A program made the translations under genes and the position numbers. DNA of 48,614 bases from a virus: positions 1 through 48,614 of IMG/VR virus record IMGVR_UViG_3300010399_000012. The stretch is one strand, 5' to 3'. The notes beneath the pieces are model-generated. The model searched no databases and was not told where the DNA came from. It saw nothing but the letters and a program-made list of their open reading frames with translations. Shown piece by piece: positions 124-48,614 of this stretch (positions within the stretch are counted from its first letter, which is position 1; the number at the start of each line of letters is the position of its first letter).

Positions 124-312
124 TTCGGAGCCTTCCGCAAAGTGAACGGAGTTCTCCGCTGCGTCGGCTGGGTCATCGATGCCGGCGCGCAGTTGAATTT
201 GATTTGTTCCCTGACAGGCGCGGAGCAAAGCAACCGGGCTGCACGTCATGCGCTCGACGGCAAGGCCACCGCGTGCATGCACATCTGGAACGGGGTGAGC
301 CTGCATCATTGA
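64..312 (+). CDS. Conserved phage hypothetical protein, 82 aa
   Basis: The ATG at 64 is preceded by a GGGGGTG purine run at good spacing, which favours it over the upstream GTG at 58. The protein begins MSEEELILQAASLPPVYVDG and is compact and globular, with no signal peptide or membrane segment. It resembles a small conserved protein of rhizobial prophages, but I cannot name a function. It is a lone plus-strand gene between two leftward genes and overlaps the 3' end of the Cro-like gene by 7 bases, so it must have its own promoter, possibly in the 48295-63 gap across the circle junction. Confidence 0.7.
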   Translation: MSEEELILQAASLPPVYVDGFGAFRKVNGVLRCVGWVIDAGAQLNLICSLTGAEQSNRAARHALDGKATACMHIWNGVSLHH

Positions 313-506
313 GCGGGTTCCAGCGACTGATAGTCGTCAGCGGTAGATGCGCCCTTCGTGAACACCCTGATCTTTTCGATCGTCTCCCAGTTGGGACGGA
401 GCTTTCGGCGCCGAATCCGGCTGACAGTTACGCGAGATCGCTCAATGCCCGCCGCAACGGCGTCATCATCGAGTTTGTTCAAAGTCATGTAATCGGAGAG
501 GTGCAT
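306..506 (-). CDS. Cro-like HTH regulator, 66 aa
   Basis: A small one-domain DNA-binding protein. Residues about 12-45 have the helix-turn-helix pattern (DDAVAAGIERSRVTVSRIRR), followed by the basic stretch RRRKLRPNWETIEKI typical of small phage HTH proteins. It diverges from the Xre gene at 602, with an operator cluster between them, which is the classic repressor/Cro layout. Its promoter (515-543, minus strand) places the transcription start only a few bases before the ATG and there is no Shine-Dalgarno, so the message is probably leaderless. It is called Cro-like because it is the first gene on the leftward (replication) arm. It could instead be the maintenance repressor. Confidence 0.72.
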   Translation of the reverse strand: MHLSDYMTLNKLDDDAVAAGIERSRVTVSRIRRRKLRPNWETIEKIRVFTKGASTADDYQSLEPAQ

Positions 507-514
507 GTTTAGCG

Positions 515-543
515 TTGTACGCCCGGCGTACAGTCGCCGTCAA
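515..543 (-). promoter_or_regulatory. Leftward early promoter (PL-like) with embedded operator
   Basis: On the minus strand a TTGACG -35 box (543-538) is followed by 17 bases and a GTACAA -10 box (520-515). The 17-bp palindrome TGTACGCCGGGCGTACA sits between the boxes and runs into the -10, so a bound repressor would block polymerase. The rightward promoter at 1422-1450 has the same boxes, spacing and operator. The start point would fall around 508, almost at the ATG (506). Confidence 0.65.
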
Positions 544-602
544 GCCCTTTTGTACGTGAGGTGTCGTTTTCATCGACGGCGGCGCCGTGCATGATGCGTA
601 CA
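516..602. promoter_or_regulatory. Operator cluster 1 of the lysis-lysogeny switch (three sites)
   Basis: Site 1, 516-532, is a perfect 17-bp palindrome with a single central base. Site 2, 551-567, keeps the left half TGTACG and matches at 10 of 17 positions. Site 3, 586-602, keeps the right half GCGTACA and also matches at 10 of 17, and it runs into the ATG of the Xre gene. The centres (524, 559, 594) are exactly 35 bp apart. A strong site plus graded weaker sites between divergent regulators is typical of phage OR/OL regions. Site 1 covers the leftward promoter and site 3 would allow the repressor to control its own gene. Confidence 0.65.
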
Positions 603-967
603 TGGGGAAAAAGACAACGAAAACAGCGCAGACAAGATTGCGGCCGCTTTACCAGCGGACGTTCATCCGGGCATGGCGCGAGAAACGCAAAATGTCCCAA
701 GAAGAGTTGGCGGCAAGGGTCGGTGAGTACCTGGAAGAGAACGAGATCAGCGAGAAGGGCTATAGCCACGCCAGCATCGGCCGAATCGAAAATGGTCGCA
801 TGCCCTACTCACAGCCAATCATAGAAGGCATCTCAAAGGCCCTCGGGGTGCCTGTAGCCACGCTGATAGCGCTCCCGCCCCCGAATGACGATACCGAGCC
901 GCCACTCAACCAAGAGGCTCTTATGGCCCTTTGGAACAATGTCTCCCGCACAGTTGGGCGCAGGTAA
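602..967 (+). CDS. Xre-family repressor (CI-like), 121 aa
   Basis: An Xre/Cro-type HTH domain spans about residues 20-80: an MSQEELAARVGEYL helix, then SHASIGRIENGRMPYSQPII (recognition helix and following loop), then ISKALGVPVATL. There is no C-terminal RecA-cleavage (LexA-type) domain, so induction by autocleavage is unlikely. The ATG at 602 is the first in-frame ATG; a GTG at 587 is possible. Neither has a Shine-Dalgarno, and operator site 3 abuts the start codon. A strong terminator at 1307-1343 separates it from the rightward operon. It is taken as the repressor because it lies between the two operator clusters. Confidence 0.8.
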   Translation: MGKKTTKTAQTRLRPLYQRTFIRAWREKRKMSQEELAARVGEYLEENEISEKGYSHASIGRIENGRMPYSQPIIEGISKALGVPVATLIALPPPNDDTEPPLNQEALMALWNNVSRTVGRR

Positions 968-1039
968 TAGTTCTCCTTCCGCTATTCCCGGCAGTAATGC
1001 CAAGCGGCCTGAGGAGAACGGAGAGCGCGTATACCTGGG

Positions 1040-1147
1040 ATGCCCTATATCGGGGGCCAGCCGCCCGGCACGCAATACACTGCCTTTAAAGTCCCAGATG
1101 TGAGCATAGCCCCGTCGGCATTTGCTCGGGTCGGAAGCCCTCATTGA
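1040..1147 (+). CDS. Possible 35-aa protein or gene remnant
   Basis: A short reading frame starts MPYIGGQPPGTQYTAFKV and stops at 1147. The beginning resembles the N-termini of some phage tail-fibre or adhesin proteins, but there is no continuation in frame and no strong ribosome-binding site. It lies in the 530-base gap between the repressor and the rightward operon. It may be a remnant of a longer gene, a tiny real gene, or chance. The rest of the gap holds the terminator and operator cluster 2 and otherwise no gene I can support. Confidence 0.25.
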   Translation: MPYIGGQPPGTQYTAFKVPDVSIAPSAFARVGSPH

Positions 1148-1306
1148 GGTGAAGATCCCCCGCGCGGCGCCCCCGGAATCGCCGGGCCGTGTGAACATCT
1201 ACGCGGCAGCTCAATCGGTATTTTGTACCGGGCTGGACAATATACGTTGCGCCGCCTATATCTGACCCAACGGTCTGGGGATTGTCCTTCAAGCCTTCCC
1301 AGATCA

Positions 1307-1343
1307 GCCCGGCCGATTGTCACGAATCGGGTCGGGCATTTTT
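1307..1343 (+). terminator. Rho-independent terminator upstream of the rightward operon
   Basis: The 5' arm GCCCGGCCGATT (1307-1318) pairs with AATCGGGTCGGGC (1325-1337) around a 6-base loop, with one small irregularity, and is followed by ATTTTT. It would end transcription from the repressor gene and insulate the rightward early promoter 80 bases downstream. Confidence 0.75.
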
Positions 1344-1397
1344 CTATATGTGCTGTTCACGGTACGTTCGCAAGACCTCAACCCTCCCGAAATTATT

Positions 1398-1449
1398 TGT
1401 ACGCCTCGCGTACGATTTCCATTGACTTCTCCTGTACGCCGGGCGTACA
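1398..1449. promoter_or_regulatory. Operator cluster 2 (two sites)
   Basis: Site 4, 1398-1414, matches 14 of 17 positions of the site 1 palindrome. Site 5, 1433-1449, is TGTACGCCGGGCGTACA, identical to site 1 read on the minus strand. The centres, 1406 and 1441, are again 35 bp apart. Site 4 lies upstream of the -35 box and site 5 fills the promoter spacer and -10, so this is the rightward counterpart of cluster 1. Confidence 0.7.
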
Positions 1450-1451
1450 AG
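1422..1451 (+). promoter_or_regulatory. Rightward early promoter (PR-like)
   Basis: TTGACT (1422-1427) is separated by 17 bases from GTACAA (1445-1450), or by 18 from TACAAG. Operator site 5 lies inside it. The arrangement copies the leftward promoter at 515-543. The first gene of the operon starts at 1497. Confidence 0.65.
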
Positions 1452-1496: not shown

Positions 1497-1592
1497 ATGT
1501 CAGACGCGCAATTCTACGGCTTCACAAGTCTCATCGCTTTGCTGGCGGCGCCGTACATCGCGCTTCTGTCGGCCCTCGTGTGGCCCCTCTGA
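1497..1592 (+). CDS. Membrane miniprotein, 31 aa
   Basis: First gene after the rightward promoter. The ATG at 1497 follows CGAGGAAAA. The protein is one hydrophobic helix with a short polar N-terminus: MSDAQFYGF, then about 20 residues of Leu, Ala and Ile ending in VWPL. It is almost certainly inserted in the inner membrane. Its stop lies two bases before the next start, so the two genes are probably translated together. The position (first immediate-early gene) would suit a host-takeover or superinfection role, but nothing in the sequence proves that. Confidence 0.5.
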   Translation: MSDAQFYGFTSLIALLAAPYIALLSALVWPL

Positions 1593-6846: not shown

Positions 6847-7086
6847 ATGACCCTTTGGCCCGCAGCACTTCGTCTCGACCAGGCAGCCGAATACACTGGC
6901 TTGTCCGTCGATACGTTCAAGGAAAAGTGCCCGGTCAAGCCCATTTCGTTCACGGAATCCACAAGAGGAAACCGATGGCTTCGCGCCAACCTGGATAATT
7001 GGCTCTTGTCTTTGGACCCGAACAAGCAATCATCCCCGACCGGCAGGCGATTTGGGGAGAAGATCGGTGGTCAAGGTGCGGCTTAA
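6847..7086 (+). CDS. Excisionase-like HTH protein, 79 aa
   Basis: A short MerR/AlpA-like winged helix: LRLDQAAEYTGLSVDTFKEK (HTH, residues about 8-28), a beta turn with FTESTRGNRWLRANLD, then LDNWLLSLD. Xis proteins of this type bend attP DNA and drive excision. It overlaps the integrase start by 20 bases, a common xis-int arrangement. Confidence 0.75.
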   Translation: MTLWPAALRLDQAAEYTGLSVDTFKEKCPVKPISFTESTRGNRWLRANLDNWLLSLDPNKQSSPTGRRFGEKIGGQGAA

Positions 7087-8218
7087 AGGTCTGAAAATCG
7101 CCCACGCTCGGGGCAAGTATTACGTCTACGTCCGCGCGACGGGCAAGGCCCTGATCTGCGGCTTTGAGGGCAGCAAGGCGCAGCTCATCAAGAAGCTGGA
7201 AGATCCCGACATGATCGGCGCCTACAATGCGCGACGCGGCACCCGGACTTATCCGAGCCAAACGCTGGGCGGGCTGGTCGCTTGGTATCAGAGCGACGAT
7301 TGCGCGGAATACAGGGCTCTCGCCCAATCAACTCGCGAGAACTACGACGCTGCCCTGCTCTATCTGGAGCCGGAATATGACGCGCCGCTGGACACCATCA
7401 CGCCAGCCGCGGTCTATGGCGTGCGCGACAAATGCGCCGTTGCGAAGTGGCCCGCCTTTGCGGACAACGTGACCACGACCCTTTCATCTATGTTCAATGC
7501 CGCCGTGAAACGCGGAAAGATGCCCAGCAACCCCGCTAAGGGCATTGAGCGCGCCCGCAAGTCAGACCCAAACGCCAACCGGGAATGGTTGCCGGCCGAA
7601 TGGGCGACCGTCATGGCCTGCGCGCCGGGCCACCTGAAGACCGCTTACATGATTGCCCGGCATATCGGCTACCGCAGCCAGAGCGTCGTGGCCGTAACAT
7701 GGAAGAACTACCAACCAGACCCGCGATTCCGGATGTGCTTCCGGATGGCGCACAGAAAAAACGGCGAGCGGCATTGGCTGCCGGCATCGCCGCTGCTTCA
7801 GGAATATCTCGCCTCGCTCAAGGTCCGGACGAAGGATGGCAAGATCGCGCTCCGCTTCAACGGCCAGCCGTGGGAGAGCGAGGAACAACTACAGAAACAG
7901 TCCAGCAACTTCCTCGCGAAGCTGACGAAGAAGGGGCTGGTCGAGCCGGGTCTGACGCTGCATGGCCTGCGGGTTTCATTCGCTGCCGAGATCAAGCGGG
8001 TCACTGGCGCAAGCGACGCCCAGATCGCCCGTGCGCTTGGCGATCGTGACGACCGCATGGGCGGTCACTACACCCGCCATGTCGAGCAAGAGAACCAGGT
8101 GGCACTTGCGTTCTTCAGTCTGATGAGCACAGGAACAGAACAAGATTTGGAAAACGGGAGGATGCAGGTTTTCCAAAATGGCGGAAACACAAGTAATGTG
8201 ATAGACTTAAAAGAGTAG
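7067..8218 (+). CDS. int: Tyrosine-type phage integrase, 383 aa
   Basis: The GTG at 7067 is preferred since GGGGAGA lies just upstream; a TTG at 7052 is also open. An N-terminal arm-binding segment and a core-binding SAM-like domain (about 65-165) precede the catalytic domain (about 175-345). Active-site residues that can be assigned: Arg203 (GYRSQ), Lys231 (HRKNG), His299 and Arg302 (HGLR) and nucleophile Tyr335 (GHYTR). The usual LGH before the Tyr box reads LGD here, while His334 adjoins the Tyr. It integrates and excises the phage by recombination between attP and a bacterial site. The last 35 residues lie beyond the catalytic core. Confidence 0.92.
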   Translation: MVKVRLKGLKIAHARGKYYVYVRATGKALICGFEGSKAQLIKKLEDPDMIGAYNARRGTRTYPSQTLGGLVAWYQSDDCAEYRALAQSTRENYDAALLYLEPEYDAPLDTITPAAVYGVRDKCAVAKWPAFADNVTTTLSSMFNAAVKRGKMPSNPAKGIERARKSDPNANREWLPAEWATVMACAPGHLKTAYMIARHIGYRSQSVVAVTWKNYQPDPRFRMCFRMAHRKNGERHWLPASPLLQEYLASLKVRTKDGKIALRFNGQPWESEEQLQKQSSNFLAKLTKKGLVEPGLTLHGLRVSFAAEIKRVTGASDAQIARALGDRDDRMGGHYTRHVEQENQVALAFFSLMSTGTEQDLENGRMQVFQNGGNTSNVIDLKE

Positions 8219-40401: not shown

Positions 40402-41169
40402 CTAGAACCCCGTGAGCGGATCTCCGCCCATTGCATTCGCTGCCATCGCCTTCTTGCGGTTCTCGGAGCGAAGCGCTGGCGGTAACAGCGCATGGCGGAT
40501 CATCATCACACCGTAACGGGTTGCCGACATCAGGTCGTCCTTCAGCTTCACGACCTTGCCGTCCTTGCGATGATAAAGGCGGAACTCCTCGAACCAGTCA
40601 TTGAGGTTCGAAAACACCTTAAGGCGGCCTGTCTGCATGCGCTCCAGCATTTCAGTCAAGCCAGGAAATACCGCATTCGAACCATCAGGGAATGTCGCCA
40701 TGCTCTCCAGCATGTTTAGCCCGTGGTCCTCATACTGCTTCCTAAGCGGGACGCCGCCACCGGCGGCGGTCTCGTTGTTTCCATCATGCGGCCAGGCCCA
40801 AGGAATCCACTTGCCCCACGGCTTGACCGCCGCCGCGTGAATGATCGGCGTTTCCTGACTGGCCCTATAGCATTTCACAACGTAGATGACGTCAGCTTCA
40901 TCGTCATAAACCAGCTCGACTGCTCCGAACGGATGATCCCAGCCAAAATCCATCGCACCAAGGCGTGGCCAATAGACCGGCATCTGGAACGGCTCAATAG
41001 TGAGCAGTGCTTCCTCTATCGGGAAAATGCGTCCCGAACCCAGAACTGGTATTCCCTTGGCCCTAGCCTCTCGTTCATGCGCCGGATAGGCCGCAACGAT
41101 GTCAGCACGCTCTTGCGCCGTGTAGTGCTCGGCGTCGTCAATCGTCATGAACGTAACGTGTTTGCTCAC
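40402..41169 (-). CDS. terL: Large terminase, nuclease part (separate reading frame), 255 aa
   Basis: An RNase-H-like nuclease with three acidic residues: Asp74 (GAMDFGWD), Asp129 (WAWPHDG) and Asp212 (LKDDLMSATRYG). It begins with a GTG that overlaps the stop of the ATPase gene by 4 bases. The first residues, HVTFMTIDDAEHYTAQERAD, are the segment that follows the ATPase domain in intact terminases. It cuts the phage DNA concatemer at packaging. The fusion has been lost, or the two parts work as a complex. Confidence 0.85.
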   Translation of the reverse strand: MSKHVTFMTIDDAEHYTAQERADIVAAYPAHEREARAKGIPVLGSGRIFPIEEALLTIEPFQMPVYWPRLGAMDFGWDHPFGAVELVYDDEADVIYVVKCYRASQETPIIHAAAVKPWGKWIPWAWPHDGNNETAAGGGVPLRKQYEDHGLNMLESMATFPDGSNAVFPGLTEMLERMQTGRLKVFSNLNDWFEEFRLYHRKDGKVVKLKDDLMSATRYGVMMIRHALLPPALRSENRKKAMAANAMGGDPLTGF

Positions 41170-41921
41170 TTCTTGACCATTTTCTTGAGCTGCTCATCGC
41201 TCAGAAACTGGAGAACAACGTCCGACATGCCCTGCAATGGAGTGAATGTGACGATGATGATGCCGCCCGTGGTGTTGGTTCGCGTTAAACCCTCGCTATA
41301 GATATCAAGCGGCGGCTCTTCATCTTCCCAAATGCCCTCTAGCGTTTCGCCTTGCCACTTCTCGCGGCCCATCTCATAGCTTTTGAAGCTATTGACGCTC
41401 TCTCCAGCCTGGACATCGCCACCGCCGCCCCACTTGACGACGATGCTATCCAGCGCGTTAGGAACGCCACGCCCCATGATCGTATCAACAATGGCATCCC
41501 CAGGGATCATACCAGTCCCCCAAGCCTCTTGCTGTTGAGGCGGACCGACAAGTATGCGCTGCGGATTATCGCGCGTACTAAGCCCTGTGACGCCTGCAGC
41601 CCACATCCTCACTGGCTTGTTAAAGACCTTGCCTTGCCACCAGTCCGGGTAACGTCCGGTTAGGTGGATCGCCCACTCTGCGCCACCAGCCAGCGTCTTG
41701 CCAAGCTGGTTGCCGGCCATGAACAACCGCTCTCGGTTGTCCTTGCCGGCCGCATGAAACTGCGCCTGCTTACTGTAGGGTCGATACGCCGCCAGCCGGT
41801 TGCGGTCCGCTCTTCGCTTCTTCTGTTGCAGAAGCTCCAGCAGTTCCAATTTCAACGCCGATGATGCCGGCGAGCTGTCGGATACGCTGGTCAAGCTCGG
41901 AATCGGAGAGTTCATCGACAC
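41166..41921 (-). CDS. terL: Large terminase, ATPase part (separate reading frame), 251 aa
   Basis: Walker A GNQLGKT (residues 70-76), Walker B LEGIWEDEEPP (about 194-204) and a TFTP coupling motif near 227 identify the packaging motor. The frame ends shortly after ...VVLQFLSDEQ, exactly at the link to the nuclease domain. The N-terminal 45 residues overlap the small-terminase gene by 152 bases in another frame, so the true start may be further in. It powers DNA translocation into the prohead. Confidence 0.85.
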   Translation of the reverse strand: MSMNSPIPSLTSVSDSSPASSALKLELLELLQQKKRRADRNRLAAYRPYSKQAQFHAAGKDNRERLFMAGNQLGKTLAGGAEWAIHLTGRYPDWWQGKVFNKPVRMWAAGVTGLSTRDNPQRILVGPPQQQEAWGTGMIPGDAIVDTIMGRGVPNALDSIVVKWGGGGDVQAGESVNSFKSYEMGREKWQGETLEGIWEDEEPPLDIYSEGLTRTNTTGGIIIVTFTPLQGMSDVVLQFLSDEQLKKMVKK

Positions 41922-44694: not shown

Positions 44695-44940
44695 TTAGGT
44701 TCCTTCGGTCTTGCGGTGGAAGTAATCCTTCAACCACTCCCGCGATTTCCCCAGCCTTGCCAGGTTCTCAGGCTTGCTGCTGCCGCTCTGAAGGCCAGAA
44801 GTGGTGGTGTCGATGACCGGGGTATTCCCGGTCATGCCCGGTTCTGGAGCGGGCATCTGCGCCCCGTGCGCCGCGCTATGGTTTTCTGCGCGCCGGTCGC
44901 TCGGCTCCCTTACCGAGCCGTCTGAGGGGTCGCGGATCAT
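44695..44940 (-). CDS. Hypothetical protein, 81 aa
   Basis: A polar, largely disordered N-terminal half (Ser/Glu/Pro/Thr), then a short basic helix (NLARLGKSREWLKDYFHRK). ATGA overlap with the initiator gene. No family was recognised. Confidence 0.5.
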   Translation of the reverse strand: MIRDPSDGSVREPSDRRAENHSAAHGAQMPAPEPGMTGNTPVIDTTTSGLQSGSSKPENLARLGKSREWLKDYFHRKTEGT

Positions 44941-45578
44941 GCCATCCTCCGAAGTTCGAGGCCGAATTCGCGCAATAATTCCGGCGGGGCTCGGCAGGCT
45001 GGCGATGTTGGATCGTTGCCGTGGCCCTTCGGCCAGTTCCCAAAGCTAGTGTAGCTTTGCAAAGCGGCTCGCCAATTGACGTTTTCCGGATTGACCACGC
45101 CGACGCCTGGCGCCTGCTTTGGTGCCCAATCAGCAGAATTCAGCAGCCATTTGTCCCAAGCGAAGTTCCAGTTTTTGAAAACCGTCCCCTTCGCTCGGTG
45201 GTGCGATGTGAACTTGCTCAGCTCCCGTTCCGCTCCGTCAGTCCCCAGCTTTCGGCAAGCGGCTGTCCAGCGAACCTCGTCCGGTCTCCAACCTTCCGCC
45301 AACTGCGTGCCTCTATCTTTCTTACTTTCCTTCTTCTCTTTTTCTAAACCTATAGAGGGTGCCTCAGGAATTCCGGTGGACTCCGGTGGAATTCCGGTGG
45401 AATTCCGCTTCCTTTCACGATCATAAGCGCGCCTTTTCTCGGCTACCTTATCCACCGGATTCCGCGGAATTCCGGTGGAATTAACGCCGGCAACAAACGC
45501 GCGAGCTACAACGGAAGCAGCCACATCAGGCGCACATCCAGCCTCGATCAGTTCTGCAACCATCTCGCCAACATCCAT
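44937..45578 (-). CDS. Replication initiator-like protein (DnaT/lambda-O-like), 213 aa
   Basis: Residues about 1-60 form a helical domain. Residues 50-85 contain repeats of STGIP in a charged linker (KRNSTGIPPESTGIPEA). Residues about 95-165 (LAEGWRPDEVRWTAACRKLG, ERELSKFTSHHRAKGTVFKN, WNFAWDKWLL) match the C-terminal helicase-loading domain of phage replication proteins. The repeats are coded by the iteron-like DNA described at 45310-45479, as in lambda O. It would bind the origin and recruit the host helicase. Confidence 0.65.
   Translation of the reverse strand: MDVGEMVAELIEAGCAPDVAASVVARAFVAGVNSTGIPRNPVDKVAEKRRAYDRERKRNSTGIPPESTGIPEAPSIGLEKEKKESKKDRGTQLAEGWRPDEVRWTAACRKLGTDGAERELSKFTSHHRAKGTVFKNWNFAWDKWLLNSADWAPKQAPGVGVVNPENVNWRAALQSYTSFGNWPKGHGNDPTSPACRAPPELLREFGLELRRMA
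45310..45479. other. Candidate replication origin: iterons, DnaA box and AT-rich tract
   Basis: Inside the initiator gene the 10-mer TTCCGGTGGA (one copy starting CT) occurs at 45371-45380, 45381-45390, 45392-45401 and 45470-45479, plus an inverted copy at 45451-45460. The first three are spaced by about one helical turn. TTATCCACC (45448-45456), one base from the DnaA-box consensus TTATNCACA, overlaps the inverted copy. Next to the direct array is a 45-base stretch (45311-45355) with 69% A+T, nearly all pyrimidine on the plus strand. This is the layout of the lambda origin. Confidence 0.55.
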
Positions 45579-46686: not shown

Positions 46687-46850
46687 TGTACGTCCTCCAG
46701 TTTCCGCTTTAGAATTGCCTCGTCCAGTCTCCGCAGCCATTCGCTGGAGACGACGGTGTATCCAAGATCAAGCAATTCAGTGCGGAGCTTCTCCACGCGA
46801 ATTGCCTTCTCCAAAGGGGTTCTATCGATGACGATTTCCTGGAGGTTCAT
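46683..46850 (-). CDS. Hypothetical helical protein, 55 aa
   Basis: ATG at 46850 preceded by GGC-rich sequence of the DnaA-like gene's 3' end, which it overlaps by 4 bases. Leu/Arg/Glu-rich helices ([36 protein letters not shown]) suggest a coiled coil. Function unknown. Confidence 0.5.
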
Positions 46851-47350
46851 ATGCCTACGTCCGGGATGACTTGCTTGATGCGCTCAAGCTCGGCAGCAAA
46901 CACGGCGTCTTTTGCGACCATCGCCTCAATCTTGCGCACGGCGTGCAAGACCGTCGTGTGATCTCGACCACCAAAGCGACGGCCTATCTCTGGAAGTGAG
47001 CGCGCCGTGATGGTCTTCGACAGGTACATCGCAATCTGTCTGGCCCTGACCATTTTTGCATTGCGCCGGGGCGACTTCAGGTCATACATCGTGACGCTGG
47101 GATACTCGGCGAGAACAGCCAGTTGAATGGCCTCGATACGGTTCATCACCATCCGCGGTGAGACGATCTCGCAGGCTTCGGCAATGGCCGCGTTCGGAAT
47201 CGGCGGCATGGCTTTCAGCGTTTCGCTTCCTGGCAGGCGCTCACCTACCGGAATAGCGGCTGCGCTGGAGAATCTATGCAGCCTTGCCTGTCTTGCCGCT
47301 GCGGCGAGAAGCTGTGATTGCGTCGCGGTTTCATGCGGATTGTGAAGCAT
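46847..47350 (-). CDS. DnaA domain-IV-like DNA-binding protein, 167 aa
   Basis: Residues about 65-160 match the DnaA C-terminal domain: [40 protein letters not shown], then the DnaA-box signature [16 protein letters not shown] (127-142). The AAA+ ATPase part of DnaA is absent, so it cannot load helicase itself. It should bind DnaA boxes such as the one in the candidate origin, either to help the phage origin or to compete with host DnaA. Confidence 0.85.
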
Positions 47351-48491: not shown

Positions 48492-48614
48492 CTGTGTCAG
48501 GTTCTCGCCCAGAAATAGCCCCCGGGACGTCACGAGTTTGTTGCGGGGGTGCTCATGAGCGAAGAGGAATTGATACTGCAGGCTGCCAGCCTGCCGCCCG
48601 TTTACGTCGATGGA
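48492..48614. repeat. Terminal direct repeat, right copy
   Basis: Identical to 1-123. Joining the two copies gives a closed circle of 48,491 bp and an intact gene at 64-312. Confidence 0.95.

Follow-up and report, generated by a model that had tools for sequence, protein, structure and literature searches.

In the phages lambda, P22 and 434, the repressor gene cI lies between two operator clusters, OL and OR, and cro is transcribed divergently from it. Neighbouring lambda operators are about 24 bp apart, compared with 33-35 bp at the locus described below. Another temperate phage that resembles the one described here is the rhizobial Sinorhizobium phage 16-3, with its C repressor and operators, although these operators differ in being of the ACAA...TTGT type. 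The two lambda clusters are separated by about 2.3 kbp (PMC5880393). In the staphylococcal phage phi11, as here, three homologous operators lie between divergent repressor genes (PMC3991615). Outside phages, the restriction-modification controller protein C.Csp231I has as its target a pair of 15-bp palindromes with an 18-bp gap, and the second dimer is lost when 6 bp are removed from the gap; a U-bend has been proposed for this complex, and no cooperativity in affinity was seen (PMC4321490).

We analysed the viral record IMGVR_UViG_3300010399_000012 of IMG/VR over its whole length of 48,614 nt, which we refer to as the window. We interpret the region around its left end as the probable immunity region of a temperate podovirus with relatives among Bradyrhizobium prophages; it would work as a mirror-image lambda-type switch. 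Like lambda, P22 and 434, it has operator clusters on both sides of the repressor gene, three sites separating this gene from a Cro-like gene, 17-bp operators in promoter spacers, a Cro arm that leads to replication and late genes, a second arm that leads to an integrase, and an HTH of the P22 c2/434 type. In contrast to lambda, the orientation is mirrored, the second cluster consists of two sites, the clusters are 0.5-1.5 kb apart, the repressor has 121 aa without an S24 domain, and the operator sequence is new; some members of the family additionally carry a structured RNA and a LexA-type box between the clusters. The locus would thus represent a compact lambda-type switch outside the enterobacteria, in which a repressor of ~121 aa without a cleavable domain seems to control two arms. 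Its elements are as follows (P_cro and P_right were read from the sequence).

306-506, minus strand: Cro-like regulator P0002, 66 aa, all-alpha HTH, predicted leaderless start at 506, divergent from the repressor
514-543, minus strand: predicted promoter P_cro, TTGACG (543-538), 18-nt spacer with S1, TACAAC (519-514)
516-532: operator S1, perfect 17-bp palindrome, highest mean score of the five sites across the family
551-567: operator S2, degenerate, left half-site, abutting the -35 of the putative repressor promoter
567-595, plus strand: putative weak repressor promoter, TTTTCA (567-572), 17 nt, CATGAT (590-595), proposed from geometry only, weak consensus
586-602: operator S3, degenerate, right half-site, overlapping the repressor -10, its last base being the A of the repressor ATG
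602-967, plus strand: repressor P0001, 121 aa, XRE HTH (PF01381, E=1.5e-10), between the operator clusters
1398-1414: operator R1, two mismatches, upstream of the P_right -35
1422-1451, plus strand: predicted promoter P_right, TTGACT (1422-1427), 18-nt spacer with R2, TACAAG (1446-1451)
1433-1449: operator R2, perfect 17-bp palindrome

Operators, promoters and regulators

The palindrome TGTACGCC-N-GGCGTACA is present in two exact copies (S1, centre 524, and R2, centre 1441) and in a third copy with two mismatches (R1, centre 1406). When up to three mismatches were allowed, these three were the only matches in the 48.6 kb; 0.17 would be expected, and one of 100 shuffles reached three. The sites centred at 559 and 594 each deviate from the palindrome at 6 of 16 positions, S2 retaining its left half-site (6/8) and S3 its right half-site (7/8). 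Matches of this grade are by themselves about what chance provides in a single genome (about 2e-3 per position), and both sites are credible because their positions are kept in relatives. The five palindrome copies of the original prediction therefore reduce to two perfect ones and one close one, the remaining two being half-site-like.

Both predicted promoters are built from the same cassette, which could be aligned in all 20 contigs of the family: an upstream operator, a gap of 16-18 bp that contains the -35, an operator in the spacer and the -10. The gap measures 18 bp in the window and holds TTGAC. In this alignment, the operators overlap both predicted lytic promoters. TTGAC and TACA of P_cro are kept in 20/20 contigs; in a few right-hand promoters TTGAC is replaced by TTTAC, TTGCG or GGAC, and the -10 is TACA or a near variant. 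The promoter positions given earlier, 543-515 and 1422-1450, were correct. Their composition, described as TTGAC, 17 bases and GTACAA, needed a small correction, since TTGAC is actually followed by 18 nt and GTACAA, which can be read either as TTGACN, 17 nt and GTACAA or as 18 nt to the likelier -10, TACAAN. A promoter scan listed none of P_cro, P_right and the putative repressor promoter, and the -10 hexamers of the first two are mediocre. An AT-rich tract of the AAATTATTT type (window 1390-1398) lies directly 5' of R1 in most relatives and is a possible UP element of P_right.

The -10 of P_cro is 7 nt from the P0002 ATG at 506. No Shine-Dalgarno sequence fitting this start was found upstream of it, and a leaderless P0002 mRNA is thus predicted. 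The repressor ATG at 602 follows 6 nt after the weak -10-like CATGAT in S3, and the repressor transcript is likewise predicted to be leaderless, with transcript starts at 506 and 602 for the two genes.

The AF2 model of P0001 (pLDDT 78.4) contains an HTH of the P22 c2/434/C.AhdI type and ends in one short, low-confidence helix; ahead of the recognition helix P0001 has about 12 inserted residues, which only part of the family shares. No S24 peptidase domain was found in P0001, and no peptidase family was matched, its matches being to HTH/regulator families or at chance level; this protein of 121 aa lacks a C-terminal peptidase/oligomerisation domain of the lambdoid CI type, the domain of RecA-dependent self-cleavage. 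The P0001 family profile matches C.Csp231I over both the HTH and the C-terminal region (20-111 versus 6-94, E=8e-6). C.Csp231I (3lfp) was not among the listed structural matches of the P0001 model, which says little because the C-terminus of this model is poor. The two systems are alike in having a small HTH protein with a further C-terminal region and, in the window, two palindromes separated by an 18-bp gap; in C.Csp231I this region consists of two helices that form most of the dimer interface, and the gap length is required for the second dimer. C.Csp231I differs in controlling a C-gene/endonuclease operon, in recognising CTAAG-N5-CTTAG and in using two sites only (PMC4321490, PMC3115060). 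We regard this likeness as a lead for the mechanism rather than as proof of membership. The smaller P0002 gave a weak match to HTH_26 (E=0.009) and an AF2 model with pLDDT 87.5, whose Foldseek matches include P22 c2, Xfaso1 Cro and P22 Cro, all with E above 0.08; it is conserved in about 20 relatives.

From the observed sites, cassette, register, gene layout and conservation we infer which protein binds, repression, autoregulation and dimer-dimer contact, in the following scheme. Dimers of the small repressor would bind the paired operators at P_cro and P_right, where one operator occupies the spacer between -35 and -10 and an 18-bp gap that contains the -35 separates it from the second operator upstream. 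Each pair would shut its promoter, so that the Cro/replication/late arm on the left and the integrase arm on the right would be silenced together. S3, lying over the -10 and start codon of the repressor gene, would mediate autorepression, and S2, lying beside the -35, might permit activation as in lambda. P0002 would probably act on the same sites with the opposite effect. The 33-35 bp register would fit two dimers whose contact depends on gap length, as in C.Csp231I. Neighbouring dimers may cooperate, as the original prediction suggested; C.Csp231I with its 18-bp gap is a nearer precedent here than lambda, P0001 having no lambda CI C-terminal domain, although C.Csp231I itself showed no cooperativity in affinity.

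Conservation of the register and alternative readings

Searches with both regulators yielded about 20 distinct related contigs, and our comparison (n = 20, window included) concerns contigs of shared ancestry, so that the counts are not independent trials; P0001, P0002 and the operators follow one phylogeny. Comparing the palindrome in related phages had been proposed as a check, and it turned out favourably, with sites and register kept across the 20 contigs. The distance between S1 and S3 is 68-70 bp in 20/20 and that between R1 and R2 33-35 bp in 20/20. The S1-S2 step is 34-35 bp in 17/20; no S2 can be recognised in L041, L044 or L045, and that of L040 is weak. Positions of the sites vary by no more than 1-2 bp among the contigs, and the background of sites of S2 quality in the flanks is 6.6e-4 per position. 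A spacing of exactly 35 bp was thus rightly predicted for the window (centres 524, 559, 594 and 1406, 1441) and relaxes in the family to 34-35 bp on the left and 33-35 bp on the right. In L045 and L046, S3 forms a fuller dyad, and about 14 bp separate it from the start codon. This uncoupling argues that selection on the third site concerns its role as an operator, beyond any role in the start of the gene.

In a test that assumed no spacing, all IMG/VR contigs (2.9 million viral contigs) were scanned for paired sites at centre distances of 20-50 bp. At 34 or 35 bp, nearly every pair came from a contig with homologues of P0001/P0002. Three contigs deviate: L066 is a fragment that shares its sites with L050/L105, and L065 and L087 have a distant P0001 relative only. 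Unrelated contigs showed other distances (22, 27, 33, 36, 45 and others). Exceptions to the register are a prophage (L115) with 44 bp on the right, the distant L056 with 38 bp, and L033 with 46/34 bp. Given the conserved 18-bp operator gap, how small HTH repressors measure distance can be tested with natural variants of 33, 34, 35, 38 and 44 bp. Tandem GTACAC...GTAC palindromes at steps of 33, 36 or 45 bp were also seen in the unrelated contigs L054, L071, L083, L076 and L099, and are possibly other repressor arrays.

One relative is integrated in Bradyrhizobium japonicum in8p8, and two further Bradyrhizobium genomes carry relatives. It is these prophages that point to the host; a phage-record BLAST search for the host returned HNH fragments as its sole matches. 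Looping between the clusters set by helical phase was considered and dropped as a candidate, since the S1-R2 distances show no phasing (Rayleigh p about 0.73); the lack of phasing neither supports nor excludes looping between the clusters as such.

A natural deletion bears on the question of which protein uses the operators. L033 (IMGVR_UViG_3300009678_000021) is complete, with a 123-bp terminal repeat, and its immunity region recurs in the same form in four contigs. This region has collapsed, so that S1 and P_cro stand beside a right-type cassette (sites 34 bp apart) with no repressor gene between them. P0002 is retained, and searches of L033 gave no match to P0001, HTH_3, or tyrosine or serine integrases. 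L033 is apparently a naturally virulent derivative and, being complete with its operators kept and repressor and integrase gone, offers a ready natural deletion. Its operators persist without P0001, which suggests that P0002 uses them; the Cro-like protein thus probably shares the operators of the repressor.

The same genome provides an argument for a different assignment, in which the operators are mainly those of P0002, P0001 acts elsewhere or only at the weak S2 and S3, and the register reflects promoter anatomy rather than dimer contact. L033 indeed keeps strong operators and P0002 without any P0001, and the paired operators flank the -35, so that the promoter alone could fix their distance. 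However, the deletion in L033 could be so recent that the sites have had no time to decay, and S3 lies outside P_cro and nevertheless keeps the same step from S2. In lambda-type switches, moreover, it is normal for two proteins to use a common set of operators. We therefore consider this assignment unlikely.

Far less probable is that the sites represent a host-factor motif or a -10 extension common to promoters, and not operators of the phage regulators. The motif does sit in promoters, and its inner half-site overlaps the -10 (TGTACAA), yet no further promoter, in this genome or in the flanks of the relatives, has it, and R1, S2 and S3 lie outside the spacers of the predicted lytic promoters. 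That two palindromes merely have loosely matching neighbours by chance is hardly credible at all: S2 and S3 are near background in a single genome, but some 20 related contigs keep the sites in place, and the scan without an assumed spacing speaks against coincidence. The comparison across relatives led us to exclude chance palindromes. A repressor acting on both clusters, with P0002 on the same sites, is the reading that we carry forward.

The two arms of the genome

The window has identical 123-bp ends (1-123 and 48492-48614), which shows the genome to be circular and the record to cover it completely, read with an overlap. Since the genome is circular, leftward transcription from P_cro would continue into the minus-strand genes at the right end of the window. 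The genes of the arms that we refer to are the following.

1497-1592, plus strand: first small ORF of the right arm, 31 aa, preceded by GCGAGGA, read from the sequence
7052-8218, plus strand: tyrosine integrase, right arm (phrog_1, E=9e-26; PF00589, E=1e-4)
44937-45578, minus strand: replication initiation-like protein, leftward arm (phrog_1408, E=8e-8)
46847-47350, minus strand: DnaA domain IV protein, replication arm (PF08299, E=1.6e-26)

The left arm begins with the Cro-like gene and continues with a small HTH protein, the DnaA domain-IV protein and the replication initiation-like protein, before reaching the structural genes for terminase, head-tail connector, capsid and tail. The right arm contains small ORFs, an HNH endonuclease and the integrase. 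Control of two early arms, as originally proposed, describes this layout only in part: the left arm runs past the Cro-like gene into replication and then into terminase and structural genes, and P_cro therefore heads a replication/late arm that is not purely early. The location of the repressor gene between the clusters, together with the contents of the arms, corresponds to the lambda arrangement in mirror image. The proposed lambda-like switch, in which both arms share their operators, is well supported by comparison: 20 contigs have the cassette at both promoters, with the repressor gene in the middle, the divergent Cro-like gene on one side and the integrase arm on the other. The large terminase subunit (window 40402-41921, minus strand) is split into two overlapping ORFs and forms one intact frame in the relatives G653 and G654, the split being either a real frameshift or a sequencing error.

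A structured RNA and a LexA-type box between the clusters

The segment between the repressor gene and the right operators contains three further elements.

966-1345, plus strand: conserved structured non-coding RNA, ~380 nt, intrinsic terminator at about 1307-1345
1345-1373, leftward: possible promoter with the LexA-type box, TTGCGA (1373-1368), 17 nt, CATATA (1350-1345)
1355-1369: LexA-type box GTTCACGGTACGTTC, GTTC-N7-GTTC, directly 3' of the RNA terminator and before the right operators

The existence of this RNA, apparently an undescribed one, is well supported by comparison. Its nucleotide sequence, interrupted by compact indels, is conserved in L024, L026, L027, L028, L036 and L042, and it may be transcribed either separately or as the 3' end of the repressor mRNA. 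A protein gene in 967-1345 was rejected, there being no conserved frame and the alignment consisting of RNA-like blocks with indels; tRNA and tmRNA were discarded for want of a match in 966-1345. Among 13 sequences, 12 of 26 proposed pairs have changed on both sides, compared with 6.5 +- 1.5 in shuffles and 1-7 in slid versions of the structure, and 96.7% of cells pair, figures to be read with the structure having been chosen partly on those 13 sequences. Rfam gave no match to the RNA at E up to 1 in L026, L042, L113, L114, L121, L128 and L129; in the window, at E up to 5, it gave one chance match elsewhere only.

GTTC-N7-GTTC is the LexA motif of alphaproteobacteria (PMC3323433, PMC8565304). 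The box is kept in L024, L026, L027, L028 and L036 and occurs as GTTCACGTTACGTTC, with a changed spacer base, in the prophage L115. Among family members it is missing from L042, despite the RNA there, and from those that have no RNA. With a repressor that lacks a cleavage domain, it is attractive to imagine an SOS route that uses this box: DNA damage would trigger transcription antisense to both the RNA and the repressor gene, allowing SOS induction without a cleavable repressor. Such participation of the RNA in the switch is conjecture, and we regard it as rather unlikely.

The RNA extends beyond this phage family. A search by exact pattern found it in 0/397 genomes of the order, and a search by model in 1/257 Bradyrhizobium genomes and 1/385 Alphaproteobacteria genomes. 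Homologues are present on a Skermanella plasmid (L114), in chromosomal mobile regions and in viral contigs: two come from Bradyrhizobium, one in the prophage L115 and one near an integrase-like gene (L117), a third from a different alphaproteobacterium (L121), and L128-L130 are viral. The RNA between the clusters thus seems to belong to a new family of structured RNAs in mobile elements of alphaproteobacteria.
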